Assembly (NCBI GenBank): GCA_037783545.1
Contig: JBBELK010000454.1
Coordinates: 1,178,001 to 1,242,000 of the forward strand
From: Henricia sp. BOLD:AAB3569
Lineage: Eukaryota; Echinodermata; Asteroidea; Spinulosida; Echinasteridae
Direction of reading: 5' to 3'
Length of the DNA: 64,000 bases
Part shown: positions 145 through 60,679 of the stretch, one piece after another
Layout of the letters: each line of letters opens with the position of its first letter
Position numbering within the stretch: position 1 is the first letter of the stretch
The notes under the pieces: generated by a model
Database searches by the model: none
What the model was told of the DNA's origin: nothing
Seen by the model: the letters and a program-made list of their open reading frames with translations, nothing else
Translations under genes and position numbers: made by a program

Positions 145-324
145 GAGGCCAACAAAATTCCAGGCATTGGAACCCGCCTTGCAGACAAAATCAGCGAGAT
201 CATGGAAAGTGGCCACCTGAGAAAGATAGACCACGTCTGTGGAGGAGAAGACATGAAGGCGCTGGACTTGTTCAATAATATCTGGGGAGTTGGGCCCACT
301 GTGGCTCAAGAATGGGTTCAAATG
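145..324 (+). CDS. POLL: POLL exon a: helix-hairpin-helix region
   Basis: Sixty codons, phase 0 at both ends, preceded by a ctag acceptor and followed by gtaaga. It reads from [16 protein letters not shown] to [17 protein letters not shown]. It holds the end of the 8-kDa domain and the start of the fingers, including both DNA-gripping hairpins and the SGHLRKIDH match to vertebrate pol lambda. Confidence 0.95.
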
Positions 325-3300
325 GTAAGACCTCTAGAAAAAAATGTTTCATTTCATTTCATTCTTGTTTACCCTGGGTAAATGGTTTGGTATACTTTCA
401 CTAATGCCCATCAGTTTATATATGGGTCATTCCATGAAGTTGTGAAACAAAGTGTGACATTTCTTCATTTCCACAAAAATGGTCAATAAGAGAGAAATGA
501 ATCACCATTTATATAACGATGTTGCATGATGTGGTGGCTTACACTGTTTGGGGGTAATTTGGGAGTCTTCAGTGTTGACATTTTGAGTTGTGCCATTTTG
601 AATTATTTAACAAAGTGATGGTTGTGGATGTAACTTGGAAACCAATACAGTTCAACTGCTTCACTCCAACTACAAATTTTTTCATGTTGAATTTGAAATA
701 AACACACAGTTCTCAAACTAAACAATCCTTTTAAATTTAAAAATGGTTGTGGATGTAACACGGAAACCGTGTTCCTCAACTTCATGGAATGACTCATATA
801 GTTAAAAAACGGAAATGCAAATAATACTCTGACCGAAGAATTAAGGAGGCTGAGAAATGTAACGTGTATGACCACCTCTTGTGGCAAGGCTGACTGCTAG
901 CCTCTGTAAGAGCTGCTGAGGCAGGGTGTGCCACTCTGCCTGAAATGCGTTCCTGAGCTCCTGCACTTCTAGGGTTGTTTGGGAAACACTTGGATCCAGT
1001 GGTCAGCTCAACCCATGCAGGTTGAATCAGGTTGAAAACTCAACAAAATGGGTTTTCTGAGAGCCCTTAACTACAGGATTTTCTTAGAAACGGAAAATGT
1101 CACATTTCATTTACTGTGGGAATCACTTTGTTAAAACAAATCCACTTGGACCTGTATGAAATCACTGAAGCATAACAGTCTTGAAAGCGATACCAAAGTG
1201 GTTGGGCGATCAATGCCTTGTTATCCACAAGTTCACTGTATTTGACAAATACTTGTTTACAATACAAATTTGGGCTAGAAAGGTTACTAATCTTCCTCCC
1301 CTCCAATTCACAAACGTCTTATTAAATAATCACACTTAGGGCCTTCGAACTCTGGACGATGTGCGTGAGAAAGCTAAACTAAGTCGGCAGCAGAAGATTG
1401 GCTTGAAGCACTACGATGATTTCTTGCAACGTATGCCAAGGGAGGAAGCAGGAGAGATTGAACAAACCGTAAGTATAAGGCTTTGGAATTCAATGCTGAT
1501 TAACTGTGTTTGGACATTTTGCATTTGTGGCCTTGTGAGTGCACCAACACCACACAGCCACCTTGCTTTAGCCTTTAGCCAAGACAAATGTGTTAAAGGA
1601 TCAATACAGGCATTTCACAATACAGGAGTCACTAAGAGAAAGAATACATGTATGGGAAAAAAGTTGACATGAGCATTGTTAAACATCTGATGCAATGGCA
1701 AAATCTCAGCTCAGAGGTCTCTAAATCTAATCCTGATGAGGACCACATGATTTTTTTTTTTTCTGTTATAATTTTGTGGTTATTTCTGTTGCATTTCTGT
1801 GGTGATTTGATAATGTTTTTGTGACTACATAATTATAATAAAATGTTTCATTACCCCCTCAGGTTCGTGAGATGGCAGTGAGCATAGACCCCGGTATGTT
1901 AGCGGTGGTCTGCGGTTCATACCGACGTGGCAAGTCAACTTGTGGGGATGTTGATGTTCTCATTACCCACCCTGATGGCAAGTCACATCGAGGAGCGCTC
2001 GGCAAGATACTGGATGGGTTACGGTATAAAGGTGAGTTCAGTGGGATTATGTTGGATTCTTTATTGGCTTGTATTCAACCCTTTGGGGAGAAATGTGCTG
2101 AAATTAAAGGAGCGTGTCCAGATCACATTTTTGAACCCCCATTTTTCCCATGTGTGATGAGATTTTGATACCATATCATTTGTCATATTTTTCTCATTAC
2201 AATTCTGAAATTTCGCATTCTCAATCCGTAATCCGTATATTTTCAAGGATATCGTCAAAAAACAACCGATGTTTAGTAATCGAATTTATCTGGTTCCATT
2301 AAGCAGTGCACATAATTTCACCAACATTTTTTCTTCCATATCCAAATTGGAGATTGCACTTTCCCTGTTTTCTTCCCATGGATAGTATTTTGGGGAGGTA
2401 TTTTATATGGAGCACTAGAGCACTTGACTCATAATTTAATATTGTGAGTGCGAGTCCCATTGCAACCAGTGTCTTGTGCCCTTGGGCAAGGCACTTTTCC
2501 TAACTTGCCTCTCTCCACCCAGGTGTTTAAATGGGTACCATGCTGGGAAGGTAAACAGACTCGCTGTGTGGGAGGAGTGGCGAACCCCCCACAAACTTGA
2601 CAGAAAAGTCTGACCCCCTCGCTAACCGAAGTCATTCCCATCGTGTTTTGAGATTTATCGACAGGTAAAGATGTTGTTCAGTTCATGAGGCCATAGACTG
2701 TTTATATGGTGTGTGTAATAGTTCTCTGAAATTTGAAATAAAAAATTAAAAAACCAAGGGGCGGTATTCAATTAAAAATGTGGATTTAGTAAAAACTTTA
2801 CTTAGTATTAGCTTGGTTAAGCAAATTTAGACCTATCTCATATTCAAATGCCATCTAAGATAATTACTTTAGTAAGTAAAACTCTAAGATAATTGTGAAG
2901 TAAAAAAATTACGCAGGGCACAGAACTCGCTAAACAGCCAATCGAATACAGCGTGAGACGCGCAATAAACTACGCCTTCCCATTATTCATTTTTGTCGGC
3001 AAAATCATGGTAAAACCACTTCAATACCAAATGTTCTTAAGTATTGTTTTGAAGTGAAAAACTTATGAATTCAATACCAATTTTGGCTAAGAATTTTTCT
3101 TCAGGCAAAAACTAAGTAAAATTCTTGTATATTTGGATTATTGAATTGAATACCACTCCAGAAGACATAAGGGGCACACATGTGTCCTGTTTTAATGGAA
3201 TGACCCACATTACCTAATTCCTATTGTGAGATTTTCATTAGTGCTGTGTAAGCTCAAAAGCCTTGCACTACGTGACATTTCCTTTTTTAAATTAATTAAT

Positions 3301-6300
3301 AATCAGTCGCACTAAACTAAAGATATACAGTCCGTGATTCTCAACAAATTATTATTTTTTTTCTCTGACCGATTTTCAAACAACAAAACATTTTATGGAG
3401 CTGTTAAGCACAGAATTGTGCTTAGCACAATATTTTTAGCTTGGCAAAAAATGAATTACCAGCCAAAATCTATTCATGTTGATTACGATTGACTGATATT
3501 CTGCTGAGTGCTAAGTAAGAACACAAGTCGACATACAATTTTGGCCAGTATAATTTTTGCAATTATGCAAAGCAAATAAATGTTGTGCGCAAAGCAAATG
3601 TTTGTGCTAAAAAACTCCATAAAATGGCCCCATGTTTTGTCTGTTCGTTTATGAAAATGCTTGGTTTTGGGAAATCATTCTGCTGTTTATATGTATAATG
3701 CTGGGGATCTCACACCTATGAATTGTATTTATAAGCAATAAATTATGCAGTATGCGTACACATAGACTTGCCAGATGTTTAATAAATCAACAATAAACGA
3801 TCGCTAATTATTGATTTTAGGATATAACTTTCATTAGTCTCACGCATCAAATGCATACTGACATCTTGCATTCAATTTGTGACAAATAACAACAGTAAGA
3901 AATATGTGTCTTTTGCCTAGAGGGAATTTAGTTTGACGTGTTATTCCCTGAAAAAAATGTTTGAACAGCAGCTTGGTTTGTAAAAGCATCCGGATGTCGT
4001 GGGTTTCTTTAAACAGTTTCTATTTTGTTTTAGGACAATTCCGTAAATTCAGATTTACACCTCAGAGACTTTGAGGGCTTGTAATGCTTTACATATTCGA
4101 GTTGTTTGATTTTAAACATGTTTTTTAAGCATCATTGATAGAAGTGTAATTCCTGAAAAAGTGATTGTAATACTATTCTCAGTAAGTGTGTAGGGTCCCT
4201 TATTGAGAATGGCATTACAATCAGTTTTTCAGGAATTATACTTCCATCAATGATGCTTGAAGAACATGTGTTTAAAATCAAACAACTTGAATATGTGAAG
4301 CATTACAAGCCCTCAAAGTCTCTGGGGTGTAAATCTGAACTTACAGAATTGCCCCTTAGCCTCTCAGCATTTTCTTTGAATAAAGATTGGGTATTTGGAC
4401 AGTTTTATAAAGTTACTTGGAAAAAATTAGCATTTGAAGAAAAAAACCATGAAGTTACCAGACAGTTAATCTGCCGACTAACTCAACGTTTTGCAGGAAA
4501 TGACAAAATGACAAACTGTTATTCTTTCATTTTTGTTCCAGGTGACCTTATATAGAAACAAAATTAATTAGTTTTCATTATTCTGCACAATGTCACTGAT
4601 GACGTCAGCAGTCAAACAAATCATTGTCAGTTGACAGTTTCTTTATGACTTCCTGTGAATGTGAATTATGCCAATTTGCGAATCATTGCCCTCTCCCTGT
4701 CCTGGTCGAGGATAATGTAGCGTTTCTATGGCAACGGCCAGTGCCCGATTAAATTCTGATCAGTTTTTCGGTTCTGCACTGGTGGATATCGGGAAGTGCT
4801 ACATCCATGATAAGATACTCGTCGAAATGTTTTATCTACAGGAAATATGGAGACATGGTTGATTTCCTTCCTCCATGGTTGATTAAAGAAAAATGGTGGT
4901 AAGAGTTTGGAATGTGCAGATTTGATGAAAAAAACCAACAAGATTTCGAGTGGGGAAAAATTTAAGATTTTGTGAGGAAACACTGTCTCATATGTTTTGC
5001 ATACGAGGTCTGAAGCCATGATCAACTTCCCAATTCTTTCCAAAATGGTAATTGATCAGGTGAAAATCCATATGAGAACAGTGGTGAATATGGCAGCCAT
5101 TGAAACATTTTGACAGCAATGAAAAAATAATTGAATATAGTCGATCATCTATCTTGCCTGTTAGTAAAATGCAGTCGATTTAGTGCACGGTTGAAATTTC
5201 CGTTCTGTTGTTTAAAATATTTAGAAACGTGTATCTTCTGAATTATTTGTTCGTTTTTTTCATTCTCGGGAAATTTCATCCTTTGAATGCATACAGTTGC
5301 CACGTTAAAAGCAGAGGCTCGTCAATGCGCGCGTGAGGCCAAATTCGTGCCACGAAATACGCAGCTCCATACCTTTTCTATGGAGCTGCGTATTTCGTGG
5401 CACGAAGTTGGCCTTATGACGAGCCTGTATCTTCAATGGATGTAAAAATTAAACTTAAAATTATTTCAATATTTAATCTTGGGAGTTTCGCACTGTTAAA
5501 TGCGCGTGCGCTGACCTAAACCGCGAGCACGCAATGCGTGCGTGGGCGTAAATTTTACTTTGCAACTTCCGTTTGTACAGTTTTCTTTCTTATCGTGCTA
5601 TATTTTTGAACGCAAATAGCATTTTACAAATAAGCATGATTTCGGGCTCTGTGAAACGATATAGTGCCACTTTAACCAATGTATTCCCCTTTTACCGAAA
5701 AGAAAATATCCGTTTTAGGCAATTCAATTAGCCTGTTGCGGCGTGACTGCTTACGTCAGGCCTACGTAGACGAGCGAGGGGAAAAAATGAACAGAACAAT
5801 TGGCCCTGTCGTCCTATGTCTTTTTACGCGTAGCTCAGACTGACTTCAATTCCGAATTCAATTTATCGCCGTATCAAAGCTGACTGGGATATTTCGTTAG
5901 CACCGATTTCTTAAAAGCCTATTCGCTATATCATCTGATTTGTAACACGACTCTCCCGCGCGTTAAAAGCTTTTAGGCTGACCGTGGCAATGAGCTGCTT
6001 TGTACGTGAAAGAGACACGCGTTGCGGATTTGCGTCCCGGGATTTGCGTACGTAGTGAATTATTCTACAGAACACAGAGTAGGCCTACTAAACGCAGGGG
6101 TGTTGTACGTTATAGCCACCCACCCACACCCCCTCCCTCCCCACTACCCCCCCCCCCCCCCCCGAAAAAAAAATAGCTAAATTTTCAATTGCCCCTTATT
6201 TTTAGAATATCAATAACGCATATTTATGTCTTAGCATCTTATCATTTATTCATGTGTAATTTACCTCGATATTGTTTTATTTAAAATTATTTTGATTAGT

Positions 6301-9300
6301 CTAGCACGTGGTAATTAATTCGAATTTTTTTAATTTCTAACTACACGGTATATTATTCGCCAAAGCGGTCCAGGTTGAGAGTCGTCCTCAAATTTCGCAT
6401 TGTGCCATTTTCTGGAAACCACAGCTCTTGCTTGTGTATCAAATTAGTGTGTTTTTTACTTCCCCTTTTAACACTGGGAATTCCTGGCAATAAAATATTC
6501 GCGCTAAATCCAACGAATTCTAGCGAACGGCGAGCAAGCTTTCCCCAGAAAGACAGTCCGTATGCGTTCAGCTGCTCGTTCAAGTATGAGAAGACAAGAG
6601 TAGTTTGCATTCTCAAAGAAACGAACAAAATATTGTCTTGCCCAGTTGCGCACGCATGCAACACCGAAAAGGGTTAAGTTCTCAGGGGAAACCTGAAAGG
6701 AGTATACCAATGTGCCTCCTAGCTTAGCTGCCCGATATGTCACTGATCTCAGGTTTGGATCCCGACGAGGATCATGCATATGATTTTGTTTTTATCTCAT
6801 CCCATTTAAAGAGTCGGTTGTGTACTAATAGACCAAACACTTAATGACGTCATAGTTTGTTCCCTAAGACTCCATACACTATGCACACATGCAAACAAAG
6901 CGTGACGTCATCATGCATTAAGTATAAATTATTGGCAACACTGATTGATTGATTGATTGATTTATTTATTTGATATCCAACAGCGGAGATCCGCCACTCA
7001 CAGGTATCATGAAAACGAAAACAAAAACTTAAATATACTAACTTACAGATTATCTGTGATTGACAAGCTGGACTAAGTGATTTTTCGAGAAAAAAAAAAG
7101 GCTTTTATGTTAAAAAGGTCTTCTTACGTACGCGCGATGGCCCAGAAATTTATTATGTATGTACCGGTACATTGGAATGTCCGACGTAATGTTCGGCGAA
7201 AACAGTCTTGACGAGTGTCTTGTAAACGTCTAGATTGCAAGAAATTGAGACATTGTGAGAGGGCAATTTAGCGAAGGAGCGGGATGGGGAAAGGCCCTTC
7301 CAATTGCACGGTCGTGTGGCGGCATGTTTAGAGGCAGGTTGACGTTCCTTTTGGTCGGTAGCGATATTGTTCAAGGTTCAGAAAAGGTCATTTAAATCAC
7401 TCCAAAGTGTATTGACCCCTTCGAACACGTGCGAATACGCCATTTTGGGAGTCAAATAATGCTGAGTCATTGTGGAAGCGATGTGCGCGTGCGCGTTATG
7501 TGTGTCTCTGGCGGGCGTAACGCGGTTTAATTCACCAATAGGAGCCTCATCATAGCGCGTTACGCGCGCTATGGACATACACAACGCGCACGCACATTGC
7601 TTCCACAACGACGCGGCATTATTTGACTCCCAAAATGACGTCTTTGGCACGAGCTCAATACATGACACAATGCAATGTCTACACATCTTGTTTCGAAAAT
7701 TAGAATGTGAAGTTTCTTTTTTTTCGAAAAGCGCGGAACATTCCGCGCATATTTTTGAACAGCTGTCCGTAATAATTTCCGGTGACGTAAAACACCACTT
7801 GTCCTTCGAATAGCTATATTCTACGGGCATTTTCCCATAGCCTTGTCCAAGGTCAACAATCTGTACCATCTGTTGATGATGTAACCTTACATAGACTGTT
7901 GCGGACGTTCAAACTGTATAGTGTTTGTTATATACTTATGTATTTCCGTCATAAACGGTTGTATATTGTACTTACATAATACCAGTTTCATATAAGTTGC
8001 CTATGTAATTTACATGTACAATCTATATACAAGGAAGGAAATACATATTTACTTTGTAAGGAACAGGATTGCAGTTATACCCTTCTGAGGACAACTTTTT
8101 TTTCTCCAAGTCAACAAAAAGTACGTTCCTCTTTCTCTAGATAAGGAAGTAGTTTACAAGTTTAGAAGGTACATAAATCATATACGGTCATCATCACAAT
8201 ATTTGACCCCGAGACATCTTAAGCGGGCCTACGAATTCTTAATTCTACGAATTAGTACGATTATCGGAGACTGCCTATAGACTCTATACACACAATCGTA
8301 CCAAATCGTACCCAATCGTAGCTAATTCGTGGCCAAAATCGCACAGTGGGAGGCCCGCTTAAAGCATGGTTTCCATATTAAATCGTATGGAAACAATGAA
8401 GTAAATGCTTGAGAAATTCGTTCAGAGAAACAAAAATCAAATTTGATGACAACCACGGACAATATAACTTTAAGATTTACAGAGATTCAATCACAACAAA
8501 TCAAATTCAAGCAAAAATCGCACAGTGGGAGGCCTTTTCCAATCGCATCTAAGAATCTAGTTCTGCGCAAAGGGGACATTCACAATTATGTTGCATCCGG
8601 CTGGCAAAAAAACTGTACAAATATCATGAAGGACAACCCTGCGTGAATTAATATCACAACTCTCTGTGGAACAAAGGGCAACTAACGTCCAAGGTGTTCC
8701 ATCGGCCAGGGCTGAGTGTGTTTGCATTGTAATATCATTGTATTGTGATATCGAATACAATCATCCCAATTAACTGACGTCAGCAACAGTATATAGCAGA
8801 TAAATCTCTCTTATAATGATAACATTTAATTGTGATTTTGCTGTCCGTAGATAACCTTGTGAACTTCCGGATCCACATTGAACCTTTTCGCGCGTAAAGT
8901 TGACTCGCGTCGCTTTGAGAAAAATCGGTGCTGTGGAGGGAATTTATTGTGAAACGACGCACTGAAAATCACAGAATCACAAAAACACTTCCCGCCCATT
9001 TTGATTGTGGTTTTCAGTGCATCGTTCTACTCCAAATTCCCTGCCACATCGTTTTTTTAGTTTTTTTTTTAAAGCGATGCGCGTCGCATTTATGCACGAA
9101 AAGGCTCGGTATCAATTCACCTTTCGTCTGTTTTGCTCTGTGCACCCTGGGCGTGGGGCTAGGTCGGATTGTCCCCTTGTCCTCTACAAATAAGCGGTGA
9201 CGCGTCCCCCTTATCAGTTTTGGGACGCACATCATTGATCCCTCGCAGGACGTACAAGGGTCAAATTGGTGCGACATTTGCCCCGTGAACATAAAAGAGG

Positions 9301-12300
9301 AACGGGAGGGTTTTCCCCATTGGTGATTTTTCTGTAAGTTTACGTCCGGTTCCTTTACCATTTAACCCCCACAAAATAGGGAAAACTTATAGTTTGACAT
9401 GATCACTTGTAGTGCTGCAGGGCTCGTTTAACCGCAGTGCTATACGTCCTCCGGATGGGATGCAAAGCACCTTAAAGTATAACGTCTCAAATATAACCGC
9501 AGTCAAAACACTGCATGGGTGACGTTGATTAGAAAAGGCCACATTTTGATCGATTCTGTGTGAAAAGTTGCGATTAATTTTATTTTTTTATTAAAACGGA
9601 CGTAAAATGCAGGTAACATTTTCCGTTCCAATGTTTTGTGACAAAAATGTCTCAATAGTGGCATTCTAGTGATGCCTTAGCTGATTCATTTAGTAGAAAA
9701 CGTTCAAGAGGATTCAAGGGGTGCGCTAACGTGACAGGATAGACACTCCCTTTTAATATTGTGTTTTGTCACATGATCATAACATTGTGCATTGGCCGAA
9801 ATGGAGCAAAGGTGGGGCAAACGCGTTCGTGTTTGTGTAAAATGTGACAGCATTAAAAAACATGACCAATACATGATGTATGTTGTACTTAATTGCATGG
9901 TGACTAACTTCCGCATGTTTCAGGGCTTTATATTAAAGACACATATTGCATGCAGCCAATTACCAAAGCTTGGGAGCCAGCCAACAAACAAAATAGTCCA
10001 AACATTAATTTGTTTCCTTCTTTCCATTTGTTTGCAAGTTGCTTTGTCCAGCACTGCAAAAACAGTATGTGGTAACGCTACATCGAACATGTACTTTGAA
10101 GTGAGCCTCGTTTCGAGTGTGATCGAGCCTCGTTTTGAAATATATACAGTCAAATATGTTTACATACTAGTGTATAGACCGTATCGAATAGCCGCCATGA
10201 TCTTGTGGGGCAGTTTCTTTGTTCCTTGACGACATGCATGGTTAAGGTTGTAGATATTGTCCTTATACATTGTTGAACCGGTTCAAGTAACAAAAGGTGC
10301 CCCACAAGATGGCAGCTATTCGATACGGTCTATACTGATGAAACGAAACAGTGCATTGTGAAATTGACCATGGAGGAAGAAAGAGAATTAAACAAACTTT
10401 GGTTGTTTAATTTCAATGGTGATTAGGCACCATATCAGATATTGCGTTTGTGAAATTAAATGACTCTTTGCTGGATTTTCCCGACATTAAACATCCGCTG
10501 TCACGGTTTACTTTCTGTTTCATCATCTGTCTAAATCTCGTCAAAATCGACTCAATTGTCAACCTCTTTTGTGACTCATGAACTTGATAAAGGCGCAGGC
10601 TCGCATGTAGTGACTTGAATATATACACGTCACCGTGTTGGCACGTAAGGGCATATCACTGCATGACGTCAATTATTGGCTGGTAAATGGCGCGTGTACT
10701 TGCTAGTTCCTGCTGATTGTAAGCTGTAAGGGTCTCGGGGTACCAGTTCCAATTTGTCAATCTCGTGACTGTGTTGACAATGCGTGTGTACATTACACTG
10801 TGAACGTTATAAAAGAGCGAGGTTCGGCGTGTAGCGGCAGATTCAATTCAGAGACATCAGAGAAAGAGCTTGCTCAAAATTTTGGCTTGTTTTCAACTAT
10901 TTTACCGAGCGTTTTGACATATACACAAACCATGATGGCACCCCCAACAGCAATCATGATGAGGGCCTGCAGAACACAAACTACGACACCGAGTCGCCAG
11001 CGTGTCCGGCGGAACGCCATGGCCGACGTGACGACCGGAATCACGGCGGACCAACTCCAGGCCCTGGAGGCCAAGGTCCAGACCTACATACCGGACTTCT
11101 TCAATCCATCAACGGCCACATCGGCAGCCAGCGACGGCCTGATGGGCCGGCGAAGGAATGCGGTGGCCAACGTGGTGGAAGGGCTCAGCCACCACGATTT
11201 GCATCATCTGGAGGACTTAGTCCGAACAACTTATAATGATACTGATTTTGAGCCATCGGATGACGGGGAGGATGCCTGCTTTTCCCCCACCAGTATTTTC
11301 CCAAGCCCCGCTTACTACGAACGCCGCCGCAACGCCCTGGCCACCCCACTCGACCCGGAAACACTGCAGAGAATGCAGTCACTCCACAACTGCCGAAACG
11401 GGTCAACACACCCTGCGTGAACTTTGAAAAATGTCGACACTTTCTACTGCAAAAAACAAACATTATGGGTGTGCATCTGCAAGCGTCCGATACAGTGCCT
11501 TTGAAAAACATGGGAACAAAACTCGCCACCAAAAATTGACTTTATTTTACTACAACTCGCCGACTGGTGGCGCTTTCAGACGACCCAATCAACCACTTAA
11601 ACCGCAGCTGTCGGACCCATTTCCTTTTCTGGGGTCTTTCCGCCTGATTGGAGCAGGAACCCGATTACCATGACGACCGTGATGACGTCAACAGAGCAGC
11701 ATACCAGGACAATGTGACTGTCTATGGTCATACAGACAATCACCCTTGTGAAACTCCACAACATGACTTTCACTTTCACACCAAATTTTGATATTTCTCA
11801 CATGTTCGTATGACTCATATGTTGTTATTGTGATGGTCTTATTTATCAACATGTTTTTACTAAGTGTAACCGCATGATTGTGTAATGGTAATACAAACAA
11901 AAACGCCCACCGTCACGCCTAAACGAATGTAAATAATATAACTATATTTTTTCACCAAGTTTGGTTATTTCTCCTACAAGGGCTGTTATTCGTCATTGGT
12001 ATTTTGTGGGCGTCACAAGTTGTAAACTTGTTTTGACCAAGATATACCGATTGATTGTGTAATATTATTAACAGCGGAATACACACTATAAGACAGGGTT
12101 ATATAGTCGAGTCCATCTCAAGTCTATCACTAGTCCAAAGCCGATAAAATCACAAGTCCGTGACAAGTCCCGCACAAGTTCGTCACAAGTCCAGTAACAA
12201 TAAGCAAAGTTCATTTAAGTAGCTTGTGACTTGAATTAAGACCCAGGGACTTGTGGTGGACTTGTGAAGGCTTGTGAGGACTCGACTACAACCCTGCAAT

Positions 12301-13584
12301 TACTGACAATCATTTTCCGCCAAAAGAACCATTACTTAAGTTAAATTTTTGATGTGAAACTCTGAAATTTCCTCCCATGTCGTTGTAACAAACCATAAAA
12401 ATGGAATTGATAATACAGTCGAACAATCGAACCTCGATATCAAATAGAACATTTTGCACCACCGGCGGTCGTGACATTTTAGGTCCACATTTCCTGTTTT
12501 TTCTTAATTGTTTTCTTTCATAACACACGTTTCCTGTTTGAACAAGGTAATCCGCAAAGTCCAAAGGACCTCTCTTGTAAATGAGATTTGACTGTATATA
12601 TGAAGGAACGTGCACTGTGTTTTTCTGTAATGAAACTGCAGAGACCGTTTTAAAAACATATCTACACGTAAAACGTTGCTTGTATTTATTATTTTATTGA
12701 AATGTTATATTGGCTGGCCCAAAGGAAAATAAACATGAACAAGAATTGTGATTTCTGAGTGTATGCTCTAAATGTTTGTGTTCTATGAGTGTATTCGGTT
12801 TTTAAAAAGTGCAGAGTGCACTTCAGGCACAGTGGCGCACCCTGCCTCAGCGGCTCTGGAGGCTGGTCCGTATTAGAGACCACAGGAGGTGGTGACGCAC
12901 GTTACTGGCTAGTAAAATATGTTCATCGCTCAGCCACATATGGTGCACGACATGAGACCGAGTACTAAAACCCACTCCTCCCCTCTTTCCATTGTTCCCC
13001 CATTGTCGCATTGTGTGTCAAACATCTAAAGAATTTCCTTCCCGGGCTACTTTCGAGCGCGGCACCAGGGATCCCTGGTGCACCATGGTGCTCGCCCGAA
13101 AGCGTGTTGGTGCACCAGATGGTGGCACCAACTGCTCCCGACCTCCGAGTCGTCGGGACAACTGGGAGACATGCGCAGATGCGCGTACTCGTGCATGAAT
13201 CGGCAAAAATGACTGGCGCGTCGTAGAATGATTCTGGAAATTTGGATTGATATTTTGAATGTTCAAGCTTCCACATCGAATGCAAATGTTGTAAATATTT
13301 TCATGATTTATTTTCATCAGATACCTGTGATTAATTTTGTGGAAAACTAAGCTTTTATTAGCGGGAATGTAATCTTTAATGACCGTGGTGCACCAGGGAT
13401 CCCGATAACGCTTTCGGGCGCGATTGTGTGTACGCATGTGTGTGACGTAACGTTCCCAACGCCAATGTGCACCAGGGACGAGCGCTCGAAAGCAGCCCAG
13501 GTTGTAGGGAGGGAGGGAGGAGGGGTTGGGTCGTGCGTTAAGAAGGGGAAGAGTGTGTTGAGGTATAGCGACGGGGGGAGGGGG

Positions 13585-13617
<33 letters not shown>

Positions 13618-16600
13618 GGGGGGGAGTTAACTCGGTATTCTCGTGCAGCATATAATGACTATAGTGAATGGGGACAATAGCAAACACAAATTCCCCATTT
13701 GGCAATAAGTGAAAAAAATGTACACGTACACATTAATTTTGAAATTCGAAATTAATGCGGGTATTTTTTTCAATGCTTTCTTATATTCATTATTTCATAT
13801 ACATAACAATAACCTTCACATGCCATTCAACTTTTCCTTTTTGTTAAATTAATAGGTGGAGACACTATAACGCACGTACAGCCATGCATATTTTATGTAA
13901 TTCGGACGCACATGCACAATGCAAAAACATCTAGTTTCCAACGCAAGTGGGGTATTAAAGATGTATATATTTCCTTATTTGTTGTGATTTTTTCGTAATA
14001 TTCTTATCATAAATTAATTTTTAGACATGCTTCCACGCAGGGAGTCGGTGGAAACCAGCATATTGCTGTTCTGACTTATCCTGCGTAAATATATGAAATA
14101 AATAAATAAATAAAATGTATTGTCCGTGCGTTTTGGGTGTGGCACCTCGGAAATTTTTGTGGTTTTTTTAAATTGATATTTTTCTAGAAACATAAAGTAT
14201 AACGTTCTTCGCTTTCAAATGAGACATCAACGAAAAAAAAAACCGACCAACGTTTAGTTATCAAACAATTACTGTTGATCCGCCAATAATTCAACTCTCG
14301 TTATAAAATAAAGTTAATGCTGACAATATAACTTTAAAGGTTTATCATCTCTTTACCTTGAAAATGAAAAAATGACATTTCTTTTTCGGTTTGCTGGCGT
14401 TAGCAGCATTCGAATGAAATTTCTAATAAAGTAACACCTATAGCAGGGGGCACCGGTAAGAAAAGTTGCAGACATCCACTACGGGGGGTATATAGGTCCA
14501 GTCGTTTTTATACATATTTAAAGTCTGAGATCGCGTATACTTCACCAAAATTATTATGGGAAGTACCCTGCGCATGTCTGGTACATGATATATACATAAA
14601 GTCAGTGGATGTCTGCAAATTGTCTTACCGGTACCCCTGCCTGCCTATATAGGGGAAGATATGGGATAAAAATTACCAAATCGTTTTTTTTGTACCTTTT
14701 AAATTTCGGGGGGAAATGTAGTAACGGGGACTTAGGCCTCGACCTATTATAATAGATTTCACATTATTAGTACTGCAGCAGCCTAATGTTTCAGATGTTG
14801 ACCCATTGTATTACGTCACGCGTCTTTTTATTTGCAAATTTTATCACAAAAGAAAGTCCCGAGACCCCCTTTTTTCGATGTCGATTTGAAATTGCTCAAT
14901 AGCTCAGCTGCATCATGGTAGTCCACGCAACCGTGGAATAACACCATAATGGTTTACATATGAGACAATTCTTAGTAGATGAAATGCAAATTTTGCAAAA
15001 ATTCTTGGATGCTTTTATGAAAAACAAAACATTCGTCAAACTCCTTCCGTGAAAAGCTTTAATGTCCTTGATGCAGCGACGAGATAACAACATTTTCCGG
15101 TTGCCGCCTCAGGGCGAGCTCGACCGGGAGTCCTGCCTAACTTAATGCTCGGTCACGATTCCCCGGGACTTGCTTGATTCAAGCGAAAGGGAGTCGCCAG
15201 ATTACACAGAAAATCGCTCTGTTTATTGGCAGAGAAATCACGATCTGTACACGGGTTTCGTCATCACGGCACTAGACACTGACGTGAGGTTGGAATCAAT
15301 TATGCGACAATCGGGTTTTGGTTGCGCATGCACGTCAGTTATTGTTTTCTCATTTCGTCAAAACAAACATTCAACCAATTTACTTTGTCCAGTGTTGTCA
15401 TCTGTTATGTTGAATTGTTTTTTACCCCTCTCCCCCTTCCCCTTCCCCCTAAAAATGTACTTTTCAGATGAATTAACTAATTTAAAGTGTTTCCTGTCGC
15501 TACGTCCACACACACGAAATTCACAACCAAGTACAGCTCTGTAAGCTAGATGACGTCATATCTTTTGTGCAAGTACGTCTACATGACATAACGACTTCAT
15601 TAAAGTTTTATCGGCATGTTTGAAGGAACGCGTCAGTCATCTTGCCGAACATCTTGCTTCGGCAAGATAATGCCGTGCCTAGACTGCTGACCAGGGCATA
15701 CCGTTACTTGCGTCCCGGTTAACTCATGATGTACTCATGTAGCAAAAGTAGTATAATAATAATACATGTACATGTATAGGCAATGAATTGTTTTGCCTGA
15801 AATAAAGCCCGGTTCATACTTCACGAGAAAGCGAAGATTCGCGCAAAAATTAAGTTAAAACTATAGTAATTAAACTTTCTGCAAATTCGCGGCTCGAAAA
15901 CTTTAGTCGCTGTGATGCGAATTCACGTTCGCTATCGTTTGCTTTTGTTCGCTTTCGTGTAAAGTATGAACTGGGCTTTAATAAGATATGGCGGAGATGA
16001 TACCGTGGATAAACGCCCTTAAAATCTTTGGTTTCTTTGTGTTTGTTTGATAGGTTTTATCACTGACGACTTAGTGAGACAAAGCGAAGATGAAGATGAA
16101 CAGAAGAAATATATGGGCGTCTGTAAACTCCCTGGTCAAAACAAGAAGGTATCAAAAGAAACCACGTATATACCATTTTTTTCCCTTATTTTTTCCGAAA
16201 AAAAAGCCCCATTTGTACTTTATAAAACAATGGAAATTTCATGCATTTCGTGTCATTGGGAATCGATTCCGGGACCACAAACCGGTTGAATTATTACTGA
16301 CACACGTGATGAAACACGTCAGTCATGAATTGTAAATCCTTCTAGACTATGTTATTTATTATTCATAATGATGACGTAGTACTTACTACTGCTGTGTGCT
16401 TCATGTTGTTGTACAGTCATTCCAGTATCGCAGGTGGGATATCATCGTGGCACCGTACAGCCAGTACTACTGCGCTCTATGCACTTTACCGCGAGGAATT
16501 ACGTCAATTATGAATAATAAATCCCCCATGCGCGACTATGTGTTGAAGTACTTATTTAATATTCATTATGATGACGTAGTACTTACCATGTGCTCTGTAC

Positions 16601-17784
16601 ATTCCAGTATCGTAGGTTGGACATCATCGTGGCACCGTACAGCCAGTACTACTGCGCCCTCGTGCACTTCACTGGATCAGGCCATTTCAATCGATCTATC
16701 CGATTACTGGCAAAGAAAAAGGTTGGAAAATATTCCCATTAAAAACCTCCACTTTTACTCATGTTTCACTCTTTACTCATTTTAAGACATAATTCTCGTC
16801 AAATTCTGGTATGTCGAAACATAATTCCATTTTAAAGGTGTATTAAAAGCAATTAAGCATACTTAAAAACATGTTTTACAAATTGTATCCAATCAAGGTA
16901 ATTCTAGTTTACAATTTGTGCCAAATTCAAAAGAATTGAAGGATTACATAAAGTGTTAAACTTTCTACTTTCGGCCATTTTTAGTGTGCCATTAATTATT
17001 TATGAGTTGCATCGGTTCTATTAACATGTTTTGTTACTCCTGGATCGAGAATCTAGTATTTTATTCGTGTAAAGCCGGCCTCCCACTGTGCGATTTTTGC
17101 CACGAATTTCCTACGAATTGGTACGATTATCGGAGACTGCCTATATACTCTGCACACAATCGTACCCAATCGTAACCAATCGTAGCTAATCGTACCTAAT
17201 TCGTGGCCAAAATCGCACAGTGGGAGGCCTGCTTAAAGCGGGCCTCCCACTGTGCGTTTTTTGCCACGAATTTCCTACGAATTGATACGATTATCGGAGA
17301 GTGCCTATAGACTCTACACACAATCGTACCAAATCGTAGCTAATCGTACCGAATCGTGGGGAATTCGTGACAAAAATCGCACAGTGGGAGGCCCGCTTAA
17401 AGCGGGCCTCCCACTGTGCGATTTTTGCCACGATTCCCCTACGAATTGGTACGATTATCGGAGACTGCCTATAGACTCTACACACAATCGTAGCCAATCG
17501 TACCCAATCGTAGACAATTCGTGGCAAAAATCGCACAGTGGGAGGCCTGCTTAAGACATCAACGAAATAAGGACATGCCAAAAATGTTATCAAGTAATCT
17601 TTAATGTCATTATTTTCTTGAATTGCAGGGCATGTCACTCTCTGAGCATGCGCTACGCACGGGTGTCATTAGACGCGGTCAGATCAAAGTTCACGAGGGC
17701 ACGCCCCTTCCGGTCACGTGCGAGGAGGACATTTTCAAGCATCTGGGGTTGGAGTACAGACCTCCAAAGGAGCGTGGTTATTGA
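145..17784 (+). CDS. POLL: DNA polymerase lambda, C-terminal six coding exons (gene continues upstream)
   Basis: Family X DNA polymerase that fills short gaps in base excision repair and non-homologous end joining in the nucleus. Six exons join in frame: 145-324, 1340-1468, 1863-2031, 16054-16148, 16608-16721, 17629-17784, giving 280 residues that align end to end with the last part of vertebrate pol lambda. Visible landmarks are the helix-hairpin-helix [11 protein letters not shown], the second hairpin with NNIWGVGP, the CGSYRRGK nucleotide-binding segment, catalytic aspartates in [13 protein letters not shown] and RRLDIIV, the [11 protein letters not shown] segment, and the C-terminal [13 protein letters not shown] before TGA. 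The BRCT domain and the dRP-lyase lysine would be on upstream exons not in the window. All introns are GT-AG. Intron 3 is very long (14 kb) and contains another gene. Lambda rather than beta is indicated by [12 protein letters not shown] and the C-terminal end. Confidence 0.96.
325..1339 (+). other. POLL intron 1 with a hairpin element
   Basis: Intron from gtaaga to cacttag. It holds the inverted-repeat element at 419-800; the rest (801-1339) shows no gene-like or repeated structure that I can recognise. Confidence 0.8.
419..800. mobile_element. MITE-like element with 24-bp terminal inverted repeats
   Basis: Ends TATATGGGTCATTCCATGAA and its inverse TTCATGGAATGACTCATATA bound about 380 bp with no coding capacity. 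A segment GGTTGTGGATGTAAC occurs twice inside. The TA-rich junctions suggest TA target duplication, but this is not certain. Confidence 0.65.
1340..1468 (+). CDS. POLL: POLL exon b: fingers subdomain
   Basis: Forty-three codons in phase 0, from [14 protein letters not shown] to EAGEIEQT, flanked by cacttag and gtaagt. [20 protein letters not shown] is the most conserved part and matches the lambda-type rather than beta-type sequence. Confidence 0.95.
1863..2031 (+). CDS. POLL: POLL exon c: palm with first two catalytic aspartates
   Basis: The exon has 169 nt and ends in phase 1. It contains [24 protein letters not shown] carries the two metal-binding aspartates equivalent to human D427 and D429. 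The donor gtgagt opens the 14-kb intron. The split glycine codon is completed by the exon at 16054. Confidence 0.96.
2105..2405 (+). repeat. Interspersed repeat, copy 1 (second copy at 28316-28650)
   Basis: About 300 bp that align along their length with 28316-28650, sharing CCAGATCACATTTTTGA, TGAGATTTTGATACCAT, TCTGAAATTTCGCA and TTCCCATGGATAGTATTTT. The left end TAAAGGAGCGTGTCCAGAT is the inverse of the right end of the other copy, so the full element has terminal inverted repeats. This copy has lost its right end where the SINE at 2408 begins. Confidence 0.7.
2408..2640 (+). mobile_element. tRNA-derived SINE
   Basis: It carries a degenerate tRNA-like head with a B-box-like GTGCGAGTCCC, then the conserved body segment GCCCTTGGGCAAGGCACTTT and CTCTCCACCCAGG. 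The same body appears at 36840-37395. The head is eroded and there is no clear 3' tail. Confidence 0.65.
2758..3159. mobile_element. MITE-like element
   Basis: Left end GGGGCGGTATTCAATT and right end AATTGAATACCACTCC are imperfect inverted repeats bounding about 400 bp of AT-rich non-coding sequence. Several internal TTACTTAGT-type motifs recur in both orientations, consistent with a longer folded hairpin. Confidence 0.6.
3385..3630. mobile_element. Hairpin MITE, CCATTTTATGGAGCTG type
   Basis: The ends CATTTTATGGAGCTGTTAAG and CTCCATAAAATGG are inverted, with internal GCTTAGCACA and TTACCAGCCAAAAT. It is a diverged relative of the elements at 23827-24097 and 26788-27255, which share the GCTTAGCAC and AGCCAAAAT blocks. 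Confidence 0.6.
4032..4356. mobile_element. Long near-perfect hairpin element (about 150-bp arms)
   Basis: The left arm begins AGGACAATTCCGTAAATTCA and the right arm ends with its inverse TACAGAATTGCCCCT. The arms share inverted blocks for the AGACTTTGAGGGCTTGTAAT, CAAACAACT and AGGAATTACAC regions, with a short centre near 4185-4205. High arm identity suggests a young insertion. The open frames across it are by-products of the arms. Confidence 0.8.
5305..5436. mobile_element. TTAA-type hairpin MITE, copy 1
   Basis: It is a palindrome around GCAGCTCCATA...TATGGAGCTGC with arms GGCTCGTCA, GAGGCCAAATTCGTGCCACG and GAAATACGCAGCTCCA. The left flank is TTAA; the right end reads CTTCAA where the family has CTTTAA. 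Related copies are at 31997-32116 and 54885-54983. Confidence 0.75.
6116..6166 (+). repeat. C-rich low-complexity tract
   Basis: Cytosine-rich run ending in about 17 consecutive C and then an A run. It is simple sequence with no other content. Confidence 0.9.
6838..6925. repeat. Small inverted repeat with a CRE in each arm
   Basis: ACTTAATGACGTCATAGTTTG on the left faces its inverse in CAAACAAAGCGTGACGTCAT...ATTAAGT on the right. Each arm holds TGACGTCA. It is probably a small MITE rather than a regulatory module. Confidence 0.5.
6941..6972 (+). repeat. (GATT)n and TTTA microsatellite
   Basis: Repeated GATT followed by TTTATTTATTTG. It could be the tail of an old retroposon, but no body was recognised in the following bases. 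Confidence 0.7.
7430..7650. mobile_element. Hairpin element
   Basis: The arms CATTTTGGGAGTCAAATAAT and ATTATTTGACTCCCAAAATG, and GTGCGCGTGCGCGTT with its inverse AACGCGCACGCAC, are separated by a short centre near 7540. The opposed open frames in this stretch mirror each other and are not genes. Confidence 0.7.
8219..8362. mobile_element. TTAA-flanked hairpin MITE with shortened left repeat
   Basis: It is flanked by TTAA at both ends and belongs to the family seen three times at 17069-17554. The right end has the full GCACAGTGGGAGGCCCGC; the left end goes from GCGGGCCT directly to ACGAATT, so about 20 bp of the terminal repeat are missing. A lone terminal fragment of the family lies at 8513-8536. 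Confidence 0.8.
8875..9115. mobile_element. Imperfect hairpin element
   Basis: CCTTTTCGCGCGTAAAGTTG then GCGTCGCTTT on the left faces AAAGCGATGCGCGTCGCAT then GCACGAAAAGG on the right. Inner arms such as GGGAATTTATTGTGAAACGA and TCGTTCTACTCCAAATTCCC also pair. Confidence 0.6.
10175..10333. mobile_element. TA-type hairpin MITE, GACCGTATCGAATAGC family, copy 1
   Basis: Terminal inverted repeats TAGACCGTATCGAATAGCCG and CTATTCGATACGGTCTA bound about 158 bp. Second copy at 58907-59054. The inner parts also pair (TGTGGGGCA with TGCCCCACA). Confidence 0.8.
10664..10679 (+). promoter_or_regulatory. CRE (TGACGTCA) and inverted CCAAT upstream of the nested gene
   Basis: A full palindromic cAMP-response element, the CREB/ATF consensus, is followed 3 bp later by ATTGG, an inverted CCAAT box. 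It lies 137 bp before the TATA box of the PKI-like gene. TGACGTCA occurs several other times in the window, including inside MITEs, so the functional reading is inference. Confidence 0.5.
10808..10815 (+). promoter_or_regulatory. TATA box of the nested gene
   Basis: TATAAAAG, a consensus core promoter element, lies about 117 bp before the chosen ATG. Transcription would start near 10838-10846, where TTCAATTC resembles an initiator. Because the frame upstream of 10932 runs through this TATA box, the longer frame start near 10800 is unlikely to be used. Confidence 0.65.
10932..11420 (+). CDS. Intronless nested gene: three-repeat PKI-like (PKA pseudosubstrate) protein
   Basis: 162 residues, no intron, nested in POLL intron 3 on the same strand. 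The start ATG has good context (ACCATGATGG) and lies after the TATA box. Codons end mostly in G or C, unlike the AT-rich intron. The protein is three diverged repeats: VRRNAMADV (25-33), [10 protein letters not shown] (72-81) and [10 protein letters not shown] (130-139), each followed by a leucine-spaced segment ([34 protein letters not shown]). An acidic stretch ([11 protein letters not shown]) and Pro/Ser segments link repeats 2 and 3. Arg-Arg-Asn-Ala-hydrophobic is the core by which vertebrate PKI occupies the PKA active site, with Ala in place of the phospho-acceptor, and PKI also has a leucine-rich export signal after it. No signal peptide or membrane segment is seen. The PKI Phe10 and Arg15 equivalents are not at the expected positions, so PKA inhibition is inference; that this is a real gene is well supported. 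Confidence 0.8.
   Translation: MMAPPTAIMMRACRTQTTTPSRQRVRRNAMADVTTGITADQLQALEAKVQTYIPDFFNPSTATSAASDGLMGRRRNAVANVVEGLSHHDLHHLEDLVRTTYNDTDFEPSDDGEDACFSPTSIFPSPAYYERRRNALATPLDPETLQRMQSLHNCRNGSTHPA
11683..11690 (+). promoter_or_regulatory. Second CRE, 3' of the nested gene
   Basis: TGACGTCA lies 263 bp after the stop codon of the PKI-like gene. It would fall in the 3' untranslated or flanking region. No polyadenylation signal was found close by; the first clear AATAAA downstream is at 12728. Confidence 0.3.
12094..12296. mobile_element. Hairpin MITE, CAGGGTT...GTCGAGTCC type
   Basis: The ends CAGGGTTATATAGTCGAGTC and GACTCGACTACAACCCTG are inverted. The interior is built from repeated CACAAGTCC and GGACTTGTG motifs in opposite orientations, so the element folds along its whole length. 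Confidence 0.75.
13043..13500. mobile_element. Inverted-repeat element with CACCAGGGATCCC ends
   Basis: Left end GGGCTACTTTCGAGCGCGG and right end GAGCGCTCGAAAGCAGCCC are inverse. GTGCACCAGGGATCC and CGAAAGCGT motifs recur near both ends in opposite orientation. About 460 bp, non-coding. Confidence 0.65.
13572..13630 (+). repeat. Poly-G tract
   Basis: A run of more than 40 mostly uninterrupted G. Length in the assembly may be unreliable. It lies in the POLL intron on the sense strand. Confidence 0.95.
14093..14116 (+). repeat. (AAAT)n microsatellite
   Basis: Short AATAAATAAATAAAT run with no other recognisable feature. Confidence 0.85.
14443..14640. mobile_element. Hairpin MITE, GCAGGGG...ACCGGTAAGA type
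   Basis: Terminal repeats near GCACCGGTAAGAAAAGTTGC and the inverse of GGATGTCTGCAAATTGTCTT bound about 200 bp. A one-ended relative, GGGGTACCGGTAAGAATTTG, is at 26348-26395. Confidence 0.7.
15803..15980. mobile_element. TA-type hairpin MITE, AAAGCCCGGTTCATAC type
   Basis: TAAAGCCCGGTTCATACTTC faces GTATGAACTGGGCTTTA. Inner arms (CGAGAAAGCGAA with TTCGCTTTCGTG) also pair. It ends 73 bp before the POLL exon at 16054. Confidence 0.75.
16054..16148 (+). CDS. POLL: POLL exon d: palm loop region
   Basis: The exon has 95 nt. After completing the split glycine it reads [16 protein letters not shown] then [15 protein letters not shown], matching the human segment FLTDDLVSQ...KYLGVCRLPG. The acceptor is gatag and the donor gtatca. 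Confidence 0.94.
16316..16680 (+). repeat. Tandem duplication spanning POLL intron 4 and the start of exon e
   Basis: Two copies of about 182 bp in direct order. Each carries ATGATGACGTAGTACTTAC, then CATTCCAGTATCG, then the exon start. The left copy is eroded downstream. The right copy supplies the working acceptor and exon at 16608. Confidence 0.8.
16426..16486 (+). pseudogene. POLL: Truncated duplicate of POLL exon e
   Basis: After an intact acceptor (cattccag) it reads [18 protein letters not shown], identical in most residues to the true exon at 16608 including the catalytic aspartate, but with Leu to Trp. It then loses frame by one base at CTCTATGCAC and diverges, with no donor. Splicing to it would disrupt the protein. 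Confidence 0.8.
16608..16721 (+). CDS. POLL: POLL exon e: third catalytic aspartate
   Basis: Thirty-eight codons, phase 0, from [15 protein letters not shown] to [10 protein letters not shown]. The aspartate in RRLDIIV is the third catalytic carboxylate (human D490). Human YFTGSAHFNRS is [11 protein letters not shown] here. The acceptor attccag lies in a duplicated block, so two near-identical acceptors sit 182 bp apart. Only this copy has a full exon ending in a donor (gttgga, a weak match to consensus). Confidence 0.95.
17069..17554. mobile_element. Three head-to-tail TTAA hairpin MITEs
   Basis: Three copies (about 17070-17236, 17233-17400, 17397-17554) each have GCGGGCCTCCCACTGTGCGA ends and an interior built from CGATTATCGGAGA and repeated AATCGTA motifs. 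Neighbours share one TTAA at 17233-17236 and 17397-17400; the right-hand end is followed by TTAA at 17551-17554. The TTAA target and inverted ends are typical of piggyBac-dependent MITEs. No transposase gene is nearby. Confidence 0.85.
17629..17784 (+). CDS. POLL: POLL last coding exon: thumb and C terminus
   Basis: Fifty-one codons and TGA, after the acceptor cttgaattgcag. It reads [20 protein letters not shown] through [20 protein letters not shown] to PPKERGY, matching the human end at PYREPAERDW. It starts only about 75 bp after three tandem MITEs. Confidence 0.95.
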   Translation, partial: GMSLSEHALRTGVIRRGQIKVHEGTPLPVTCEEDIFKHLGLEYRPPKERGY

Positions 17785-19903: not shown

Positions 19904-20029
19904 ATGTCTAACGGCAGAGGGCAGAAATACGAGTACACAGTCGCTGCGGGCACCTACAGTTTGGTCAAGAAAATTGGGAGTGGATCGTTTGGCGATATTT
20001 ATCTCGGTGTAGATTTCACGACTGGGGAG
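19904..20029 (+). CDS. CSNK1A1: CK1 exon 1: start and glycine loop
   Basis: Forty-two codons, phase 0. [18 protein letters not shown] leads into [17 protein letters not shown] and ends at TTGE before gtaaac. The ATG has context GCGCCATGT. A frame extends upstream without another ATG. Confidence 0.92.
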
Positions 20030-23000
20030 GTAAACATTAATAATTCTCGATTGGATAAGCGTTTTTACCTAGCCATTGCTACGTTTTCTTATAATGGCAC
20101 ATTATCTGTCAGAAAGAGCAAACTCAACGTAAAATCCTAAATTTAGGAGCGAAAACTTGAAGCATTTACTCAGGAAAACAATTTTTAGATCAGCCCATGG
20201 TTTTCTGCACAGCACAGGATGCACAGCACAGGGTCCAAATGCAGTAGCCCTAAAAATAGGGCTGTAAATTGCTCGCTTTTCAAATCTGACATATTAGAGT
20301 CGCTGTAATAAGTCAGATTTGAAAAGCGAGCTGTTTACAGCCCTATTTGTAGGGCTAGCAGGCAGTCATAAACTGTTTTACACAATGATATACATGTATT
20401 TTTAGCAAAATGTTTAACAATTAGTCATTTACAATATCTCAATAGACCTTATGCACGGCGGCCATGACAGAGGGCAGTCACATTGTCACATGCACGAGTG
20501 AGCACATTGTGGATCTATTGTCACATCAAAACCTGTCCTCTGTCATGGCTGCCGTGCATAATGTCTATTATAACCCTAGAATAAACAGCAGTTCATCAGT
20601 GGCTTATAAACATGATTAATTTTGTAATCTTGTGAATGGATATTGTTGCAGTTGTTTGAGATTTTCAGAGTGATTTTTCTGTTAATTAACAGGAAGTAGC
20701 GGTTAAACTTGAACCCAAGAATGCCAAGCATCCACAGCTACTGTATGAGAGTAAACTCTACAAGATTCTACAAGGAGGGGTTGGAATTCCAAGAATACGG
20801 TAACATGATCAATTTAGGGGAAAAAAATAAATAAAATTAGTAGTGACGTGGGCTGCATTCCAAATCTGCAAACATTGCAAACATCTGCAACAACAGGTAC
20901 CTGGCTTCCTATAGACAAGTGCAGAAAAGCACTGTAACCAGTGGCGAACGTACGTTGGCAATGTTTGCATTAGTGGAACACAGCCCAGGGCAGCTGTTGC
21001 TAGGGTTGCACACAAGTAAATAGGGCTCTCATAGAAACCAATGCTAAATGCCAAATGCCAAATTTTCAAAAATCATTTAAAAATACTCAACTCTCTCAGC
21101 TTAGGACAACAACCAAAACACTAATTGAAGTCTCATCTTTTCAATTCTGTTCAATTTTATGAGGGTATTAATCCGTCACCTTTATTCCCTAATTTCCACT
21201 TGAAACAAAACTACCACTGCAACAGTGAAAATTACTAAACAGACCAGCATCCATTTTGGAACAAAAAAATAGGGCCACTTTTAGGAGCTACATTGTCCAA
21301 ATGTTTATAGTTGGAAGAAAAAATACCCCACATCGCGGCGATGGCCATATTTTACAGAAGACCACACTCGTGTAGCTCGCAACTTTCTCTAATAAAGAAG
21401 AATTTGAGGGCATACAAAATATTCATGAGCTCGGCGCACAGATCTCTGCCCATTTACTTGGGTGCACCCCTAGAGAAGTTCAAGTGCCAACTGAACTTTA
21501 AACAGCCTGTAACTTGACCAAGTCTTGTTGAATTGTGAGAGCCTGCAGAGCCATGTGGTGGTCGTGTTTCTTCAACTATCTTAAAGAGTGACAGACTATT
21601 TCTATAAACTATTTTCGTTTCCAAACTCAGATGGTTTGGGCAAGAGAGGGCCTACAGTGTACTAGTCATGGAGCTCCTCGGGCCAAGCATCGAGGATCTC
21701 TTTATTTTCTGCCGTCGGCACTTCACTATGAAAACAGTGCTCATGTTAGCCGATCAGGTCAGTATAATACACATGTACTAAGACACGCCCGCAATGTGTA
21801 TAATGTCTTAAAGAAGTTACTCCGAGTAAACGAAGCTCTCACGGGGTGAGTGTGTTCTTGTGAGTGGTAGTGCGTTCTGAAAGGGTAAATGGTGGCATGA
21901 CTGGTGGAGCCAGATTCAGGCCTTGACATTAACCGGGGTTACCGAGGCCAATGGCCCTATGCCCTGCCGAGTTGACCCTGATGCCCCTGATGCCCCTTCA
22001 AGATATACATTTTTCAAGGCCAACTTGGCCAGCATGCCCTATCTTCTTAAATTTCATGAGGCTTGTATACACTAATAACCAGTACACATTTGGTACAAAG
22101 TTGGCCGTGGTGCACCTCCAGTTGGCCTCAGTGTCCTTTGAAATTTGGACAAAATTAAGGCCGGATTAAACTGCCCTTTATTTTGATAGCGTTGAGGTTT
22201 TCAGATTTATTTAAAGTATAACTGGTAAGGCTCAAACCTACCAGCCAACTGTCGGATAAAAATAAACGGGTGATTTCTAACACTGTTTTTGTTTTTCTCT
22301 TCTCCGTTATCTACAGGCAATAAGTCGAATAGAGTTTGTTCACAACAGAAATTTCATCCATCGTGACATCAAGCCAGATAATTTTTTGATGGGCATCGGG
22401 AAAAGTTGCAATCAGGTAAACTTAAAAATATTGCAACTCTTGTTCAAATGAAGAATACCTACAACCTTAGTGTATCATTTGCAAAAGTTGTTAACTAGTT
22501 CCCTGATCGACAGCCTTGTGTTTATATTACACCCATATACTGCCAAACATTATCACGAATCGGTGTTCTTTCTTTGCAGGTATTTTTAATAGATTTTGGT
22601 CTTGCCAAGAAGTATCGCGACAGCAAAACGCGACAACACATACCGTACCGAGAAGATAAAAACCTGACTGGGACAGCAAGATATGCGAGTATCAACGCTC
22701 ACCTTGGAATTGAACAAAGGTAAAGACACAGACTGTGGTTAGCACTTGATTTTGAGGGTGCATTTAGACATCAGAAATTGTGACCATTATTATAAATTAA
22801 TAAATACCTTAGACAGTTTACGCATCCCTATCGGCCGAGAGCACGTCACGTGGGCAGTTTTAAACAGATGATAAAGGCCCAGTCAGTCTTAAACACTTTT
22901 AAGCCTATGGCTCGCGGCCGCACCCGCGCTCTGGTCGTCGCGTATGAAACACACATACAGAAACTGCACGCTCCCAAAAGCTAATTGCACTGTGACAAGT

Positions 23001-60582: not shown

Positions 60583-60679
60583 CCCCCCTCCCCCTCCCCC
60601 GCCCCCCCCCCCCCGCCCTCCCCCGCCCCCCCCCCCCCCCCCGCCCTCCCCCCCCCCCCCCCGCCCCCCTCCCTCCCCC
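60583..60679 (+). repeat. C-rich tract (poly-C with CCCTCCC breaks)
   Basis: Nearly 100 bases of C with scattered G and T; G-rich on the minus strand. Confidence 0.95.

Follow-up and report, generated by a model that had tools for sequence, protein, structure and literature searches.

Within a large intron of a DNA polymerase gene in Henricia sp., an uninterrupted frame of 162 residues contains the tetrapeptide RRNA three times, beginning at residues 26, 74 and 132; the next residue is Met, Val and Leu, respectively. These cores resemble the pseudosubstrate sequence of PKI, the inhibitor of PKA, which raises the questions of whether the frame encodes a protein at all, whether such a protein belongs to the PKI family, and whether it could act on PKA. 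In the window (the whole stretch of 64,000 nucleotides that was analysed), the pattern R[RK][NGQA]A[MILVF] occurs four times over the six frames: three times within the 162-residue frame and once elsewhere, as RKQAL. When the protein was shuffled 200,000 times, one RRNA[MILV] appeared in 255 shuffles and two in none. The frame and its three motifs had been described in an initial annotation of this DNA, and their coordinates, reading frame and sequence were confirmed.

The features of the locus are collected in Table 1. The nested frame lies on the same strand as its host, a family X DNA polymerase gene, and three of the six polymerase pieces pass the Pfam cut-off. The host is presumably POLL rather than a sister gene, since PF10391 is named for polymerase lambda and the pieces are like human POLL. 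Nesting in a POLL intron, as initially proposed, is supported by the ~14-kb interval between the two palm pieces, which would be an intron of a POLL-like gene.

Upstream of the frame, no ATG occurs between the putative TATA box and the start codon (10816 to 10931), and the start codon has A at -3. This arrangement fits a gene with its own promoter, and the TATA box and Kozak context that had been claimed are both found, the former as a consensus match only and the latter as this A. On the plus strand, no AATAAA was detected from the stop codon to 12728 (about 1.3 kb scanned). A perfect CRE palindrome, TGACGTCA, precedes the TATA box by ~140 bp, with an inverted CCAAT (ATTGG) nearby at 10675, and a second CRE-like palindrome is situated downstream of the frame. 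The window contains 11 copies of the same octamer, where 0.96 would be expected, mainly between 4600 and 15558. Seven of the 11 occurrences are in the host intron, which makes up 22% of the window (P = 0.003, a post hoc value), and other loci of the same genome have three in 60,362 bases. The upstream CRE and the concentration of such sites in the host intron would suit a feedback by cAMP, but they are no proof of it.

Table 1. Positions of the nested frame, its motifs and the pieces of the host gene within the window
Feature	Position	Strand	Basis or remark
Polymerase piece	145-324		PF10391, 29.4 bits, just under cut-off 29.8
Polymerase piece	1340-1471		PF10391, over cut-off
Polymerase palm piece	1863-2030		PF14792, 3.9e-16, over cut-off
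Intron of POLL-like gene holding the 162-aa frame	2031..16055	+	edges approximate; lies between palm pieces 1863-2030 and 16056-16139
CRE palindrome, upstream	10664..10671	.	sequence match
Putative TATA box, TATAAAA	10808-10814	+	consensus match only; 117 nt to ATG
Uninterrupted coding frame, 162 aa, including stop codon	10932..11420	+	ATG 10932, TGA 11418-11420
Core 1, RRNAM, then A-D-V	11007..11021	+	motif scan, core alignment
Repeat 1, core and stretch aligning with repeat 2, residues 26-60	11007..11111	+	shuffle-tested alignment
Core 2, RRNAV, then A-N-V	11151..11165	+	motif scan, core alignment
Repeat 2, core and stretch aligning with repeat 1, residues 74-109	11151..11258	+	shuffle-tested alignment
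Core 3, RRNAL, then A-T-P	11325..11339	+	motif scan, core alignment
CRE-like palindrome, downstream	11683..11690	.	sequence match
Polymerase piece	16056-16139		PF14792, 0.007, under cut-off
Polymerase thumb piece	16605-16706		PF14791, under cut-off
Polymerase piece	17629-17781		PF14791, over cut-off

Coding potential and internal repeats

The GC content at third codon positions of the frame is 0.67, compared with 0.41 in the flanks, in agreement with the GC-rich third positions noted in the initial annotation; positions 1 and 2 are also raised (0.58 and 0.52). The region was divided by a codon-blind segmentation, in which the maximum-likelihood GC-rich segment was sought within 9,000-12,900 (segments of 100-1,500 nt, in steps of 3). 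The two best segments were 10936-11419 and 10930-11419, followed by 10963-11419, 10930-11422 and 10936-11422 at a resolution of 3 nt, and the base composition of the region accordingly shifts at the start and stop codons of the frame. When the whole window was segmented on a coarser grid, 10941-11420 ranked second among the eight segments listed, after 60571-60720 and closely followed by 13381-13620, a segment overlapping a G run. Of the 41 ATG frames that reach 80 residues, the nested one contrasts most strongly in GC with the sequence on either side (22.6 log units; runner-up, 13.7).

A second line of evidence comes from the codons of the cores. The three pairs of RRNA cores differ at 4, 2 and 5 of 12 nucleotides, and the amino acids are unchanged every time. 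Under random placement of the differences, silent-only changes have probabilities of 0.002, 0.09 and 0.0003, respectively, for pairs that are not independent of one another; in pair 2-3, a single Arg codon contains two changes, for which reason path-averaged counting scores one change as non-synonymous. Over 25 codons from each core, comparison of repeats 1 and 2 gave a pN of 0.40 and a pS of 0.55, so that strong constraint is apparent for the core alone.

The agreement of the GC segment with the start and stop codons, combined with the silent-only differences among the cores, makes it very probable that the frame is coding. The initial claim of a coding, intronless gene is supported: the 162-codon frame is very likely a real protein-coding gene, which is apparently without introns. 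Frame length was discarded as evidence of coding, for the window contains three longer ATG frames (163, 164 and 172 residues). Such equally long frames, and the empty orthologue search described below, are what would be expected of a chance open frame that is no gene. This is very unlikely, however, given that the limits of the GC segment coincide with the start and stop codons, that the cores differ only silently, that the layout is promoter-like with no upstream ATG, and that repeats 1 and 2 can be aligned at the protein level.

With the cores included, the alignment scores of pairs 1-2, 1-3 and 2-3 were reached by 0, 7 and 41 of 5,000 shuffles. Removal of the RRNA core leaves an alignment of repeats 1 and 2 of ~31 residues with a score of 37, which none of 10,000 shuffles equalled, whereas the scores of repeat 3 without its core against repeats 1 and 2 were reached by 2,345 and 7,343 of 10,000 shuffles. 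The stretches upstream of the cores gave no alignment among the repeats (scores reached by 1,987 to 6,773 of 10,000 shuffles). By these alignments, the protein contains a pair of homologous modules and one further core, the third repeat showing no significant alignment outside that core. The three homologous repeats proposed initially hold for the first two; for the third, the proposal is unsupported beyond the core.

Relation to the PKI family and search for relatives

PKI proteins have a single core within about 75-76 residues, and a Phe at P-11 contributes to their inhibitory activity. The nested protein has three cores in 162 residues. Its likeness to PKIA, PKIB and PKIG (PF02827) consists of the R-R-N-A-hydrophobic core: Arg at P-3 and P-2, Asn at P-1, Ala at P0 and a hydrophobic residue at P+1 are present in all three cores, and core 1 also agrees at P+3 (Asp) and P+4 (Val). 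On the other hand, P-6 is occupied by Q, M and Y, and P-11 by T, A and P, so that neither Arg at P-6 nor Phe at P-11 is found in any of the three. A search with the PF02827 profile, which the initial annotation had proposed, gave no match with E of 10 or less, either for the whole protein or for any of the three repeats (curated cut-off, 25 bits); as controls, human PKIA, PKIG and PKIB scored 105.5, 90.9 and 110.7 bits. The nested protein would therefore lie outside the PKI family by sequence, and the initial claim of PKI-family likeness, taken as membership, is not sustained. Weak matches to other Pfam families (E 0.18 for the protein and 0.11 for repeat 1) were below their cut-offs and were dropped. 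A profile-profile alignment of the three repeats with the three human PKIs was restricted to 12 columns about the RRNA core, with a probability of 12.7 and P 0.0023, and was not counted as homology.

The genome assembly (740.7 Mb, 2,104 contigs) encodes a PKI of its own. A genome profile search located the PKI family at contigs C171 and C266 only and left the nested locus unmatched; the same search gave no PKI match in 14 control genomes. The PKI exon (MAEVATTLTDFTSTGRAGRRNALPDIL...) is of the ordinary one-core type, has both the P-6 Arg and the P-11 Phe, contains a core that reads RRNALPDI, and aligns with human PKIA across 47 residues. The exon peptide is identical on the two contigs, and the DNA is 91% identical over the aligned bases. 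The exons of PKA-C are likewise found on two contigs, and the presence of PKI on C171/C266 and of PKA-C on C105/C216 might mean that both haplotypes were retained in the assembly. The POLL exon and the nested gene occur in one copy each, and no relative of the nested gene was found elsewhere in the genome.

The nested gene might have originated from this ordinary PKI by duplication or retrotransposition, with two cores added later by internal duplication, an origin that would be compatible with a pseudosubstrate function. Core 1 (RRNAM-A-D-V) is close to RRNALPDI, the nested frame has no intron, and the whole repeats, cores included, align with the PKI exon with scores reached by 81 to 87 of 10,000 shuffles. 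However, the similarity does not extend beyond the core. In six comparisons of the stretches upstream and downstream of it, the scores were reached by 993 to 7,561 of 10,000 shuffles. After the cores, where PKI has a leucine-rich nuclear export signal, leucine-bearing stretches can be recognized by eye, but they align with the genome PKI at chance level. Retrocopies, moreover, usually arrive without a TATA-like promoter such as the putative one upstream of the nested frame. Descent from PKI is thus a possible but rather unlikely origin.

A search of 5.8 billion proteins returned 93 candidates for the whole protein and 32 for the repeat alignment, none of which had E <= 10. The search requires shared five-residue words and a length of 0.55 to 1.75 of the query, and distant relatives could be missed. 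The absence of orthologues from related species had been named beforehand as an argument against the initial reading; none was found in this word-limited search, which counts partly against that reading. The same database is rich in animal proteins, for an alignment of PKI found 804 proteins in it, and among the best 120 of these 804, all those printed with an organism name are from vertebrates. In viral and prokaryotic collections the pattern matched 2 and 31 stretches, respectively, none of which was confirmed, and in the PDB the best E values were 0.26 for the protein and 0.39 for the repeat profile, with no PKI among the matches. Neither a three-site PKI nor a study of an invertebrate PKI gene is among the matches listed in the open-access literature, in line with the earlier remark that a three-site PKI is undescribed, and a stand-alone three-core protein was likewise not seen among those matches.

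A candidate PKA pseudosubstrate and its alternatives

The target of such an inhibitor is encoded in this genome. In the PKA-C exons at C105, the equivalents of E127, E170, L198, P202, E203, L205 and E230 are all kept (7/7 inhibitor-contact residues checked), at positions that were assigned by residue numbering. Together with the ordinary PKI exon, these exons imply that the PKA pathway is present. The inhibitor site of RI-alpha is Arg-Arg-x-Ala-hydrophobic, the same pattern as that of the nested cores; the nested protein differs in having no Pfam match to cAMP-binding domains.

The consensus for PKA inhibitors is given as R-R-X-(A/G)-hydrophobic in a study of ARHGAP36 (PMC5059767), and all four of its fixed positions are matched by each of the three cores, with P-1 Asn as in PKI. 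The initial suggestion that the three RRNA cores resemble a PKA pseudosubstrate is thereby borne out at the level of the motif. Charged residues, especially the P-3 Arg, are described as required for high affinity (PMC6514771).

Several known proteins offer precedents, as far as the accounts cited here describe them. In SMO, similarity to PKI is restricted to the pseudosubstrate region, as it is in the nested cores, and SMO binds and blocks PKA-C; it differs in being a membrane receptor with one site that acts after phosphorylation by GRK2/3, and its lower affinity for PKA-C has been attributed to the loss of the P-6 salt bridge (PMC13186710). Because SMO inhibits with core-only similarity, the nested cores alone could suffice for an inhibition of weak to moderate strength, possibly assisted from elsewhere. 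The sequence RRGAV of ARHGAP36 follows the same consensus, and a 25-residue ARHGAP36 peptide binds PKA-C, but this is a large RhoGAP-family protein with one site that also directs PKA-C to degradation (PMC5059767). The account of PDE7A1, in which RI of PKA is also termed a pseudosubstrate, describes two PKA pseudosubstrate sites at the N-terminus, said to block the substrate site of the C subunit (PMC6143667). Multi-site pseudosubstrates would thus not be wholly new, although the sites of PDE7A1 are two and are carried by a phosphodiesterase, whereas the nested protein would be small and stand-alone with three.

On balance, we favour, with modest confidence, the view that the nested gene encodes a lineage-restricted orphan inhibitor of PKA with three pseudosubstrate cores. 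Such a gene would yield a small, probably flexible protein. In each of its R-R-N-A-hydrophobic cores, Ala would stand where a substrate has its phosphorylatable Ser, and the core would fit into the cleft of the active site of a PKA catalytic subunit; a single molecule could then bind as many as three such subunits, or quickly rebind one. We infer transcription, flexibility, binding, inhibition, stoichiometry and CRE feedback from the sequence. Against this view are the lack of a PF02827 match, the missing P-6 Arg and P-11 Phe, and constraint shown for the core alone, as well as the absence of an orthologue from the search, the absence of AATAAA within 1.3 kb after the stop codon, and the failure of repeat 3 to align beyond its core. 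In a more elaborate form, which we consider speculative and rather improbable, the protein would be a sponge for PKA with three heads and would be inducible by cAMP: its level would be raised by CREB at the CRE upstream of the TATA box, up to three subunits would be held by weak cores, and a steep, titration-like negative feedback would operate beside the ordinary PKI.

The natural PKA inhibitors that we met outside the regulatory subunits have one core (PKI, ARHGAP36 and SMO) or two (PDE7A1). If the three-core inhibitor is real, animals can make multivalent kinase inhibitors from a minimal five-residue core alongside an ordinary PKI, and the locus would provide a natural test of whether the contacts that PKI makes at P-6 and P-11 can be replaced by a number of weak sites. 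It would, in addition, exemplify a new coding gene inside a polymerase intron.

A real gene could alternatively use RRNA as a structural motif or as a binding motif for another partner, the repeats being helix pairs in which the basic core opens a helix and contacts nucleic acid or some other molecule, without any action on PKA. The missing P-6 and P-11 determinants and the unmatched PF02827 profile would be in keeping with this, and single-sequence AlphaFold2 places RRNA in helices, with the pairs H22-34/H39-52, H69-83/H87-101 and H126-136/H142-155. The confidence of this model is too low to count, however (mean pLDDT 44.7, with no residue at or above 70), and it was put aside. A non-PKA motif would also leave four exact residues and a hydrophobic one recurring three times in the order of PKI while the remainder diverges, and both the P0 Ala and the hydrophobic P+1 suit PKA; we therefore consider it unlikely, and retain the three-core pseudosubstrate as the preferred reading. 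Peptide precursors commonly contain repeated units, and each N-A is preceded by a basic cluster (VRR, RRR and RRR) at which peptides starting with N-A could be released, but the first 16 residues are, by eye, unlike a signal peptide and repeat 3 has no conserved peptide body after its core, which makes a precursor highly improbable.

Other features of the host gene region

A dispersed element with inverted ends is situated at 12094-12300 and recurs in at least 39 further places of the genome (the best 40 of 3,074 candidates were scored), with identities of 76-94%. In the host gene, 16375-16500 contains a decayed second copy of the exon at 16605-16706, the frame of which is lost after 19 residues; this looks like a tandem exon duplication in the POLL-like gene. 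Immediately before the last POLL exon, 17070-17554 is a tandem array of three copies with a period of 164. Downstream of POLL, the exons of an apparent casein kinase 1 gene, which seems to start at 19904, were recognized by eye at 19904-22705, where the Pfam kinase match is weak (E 0.11).
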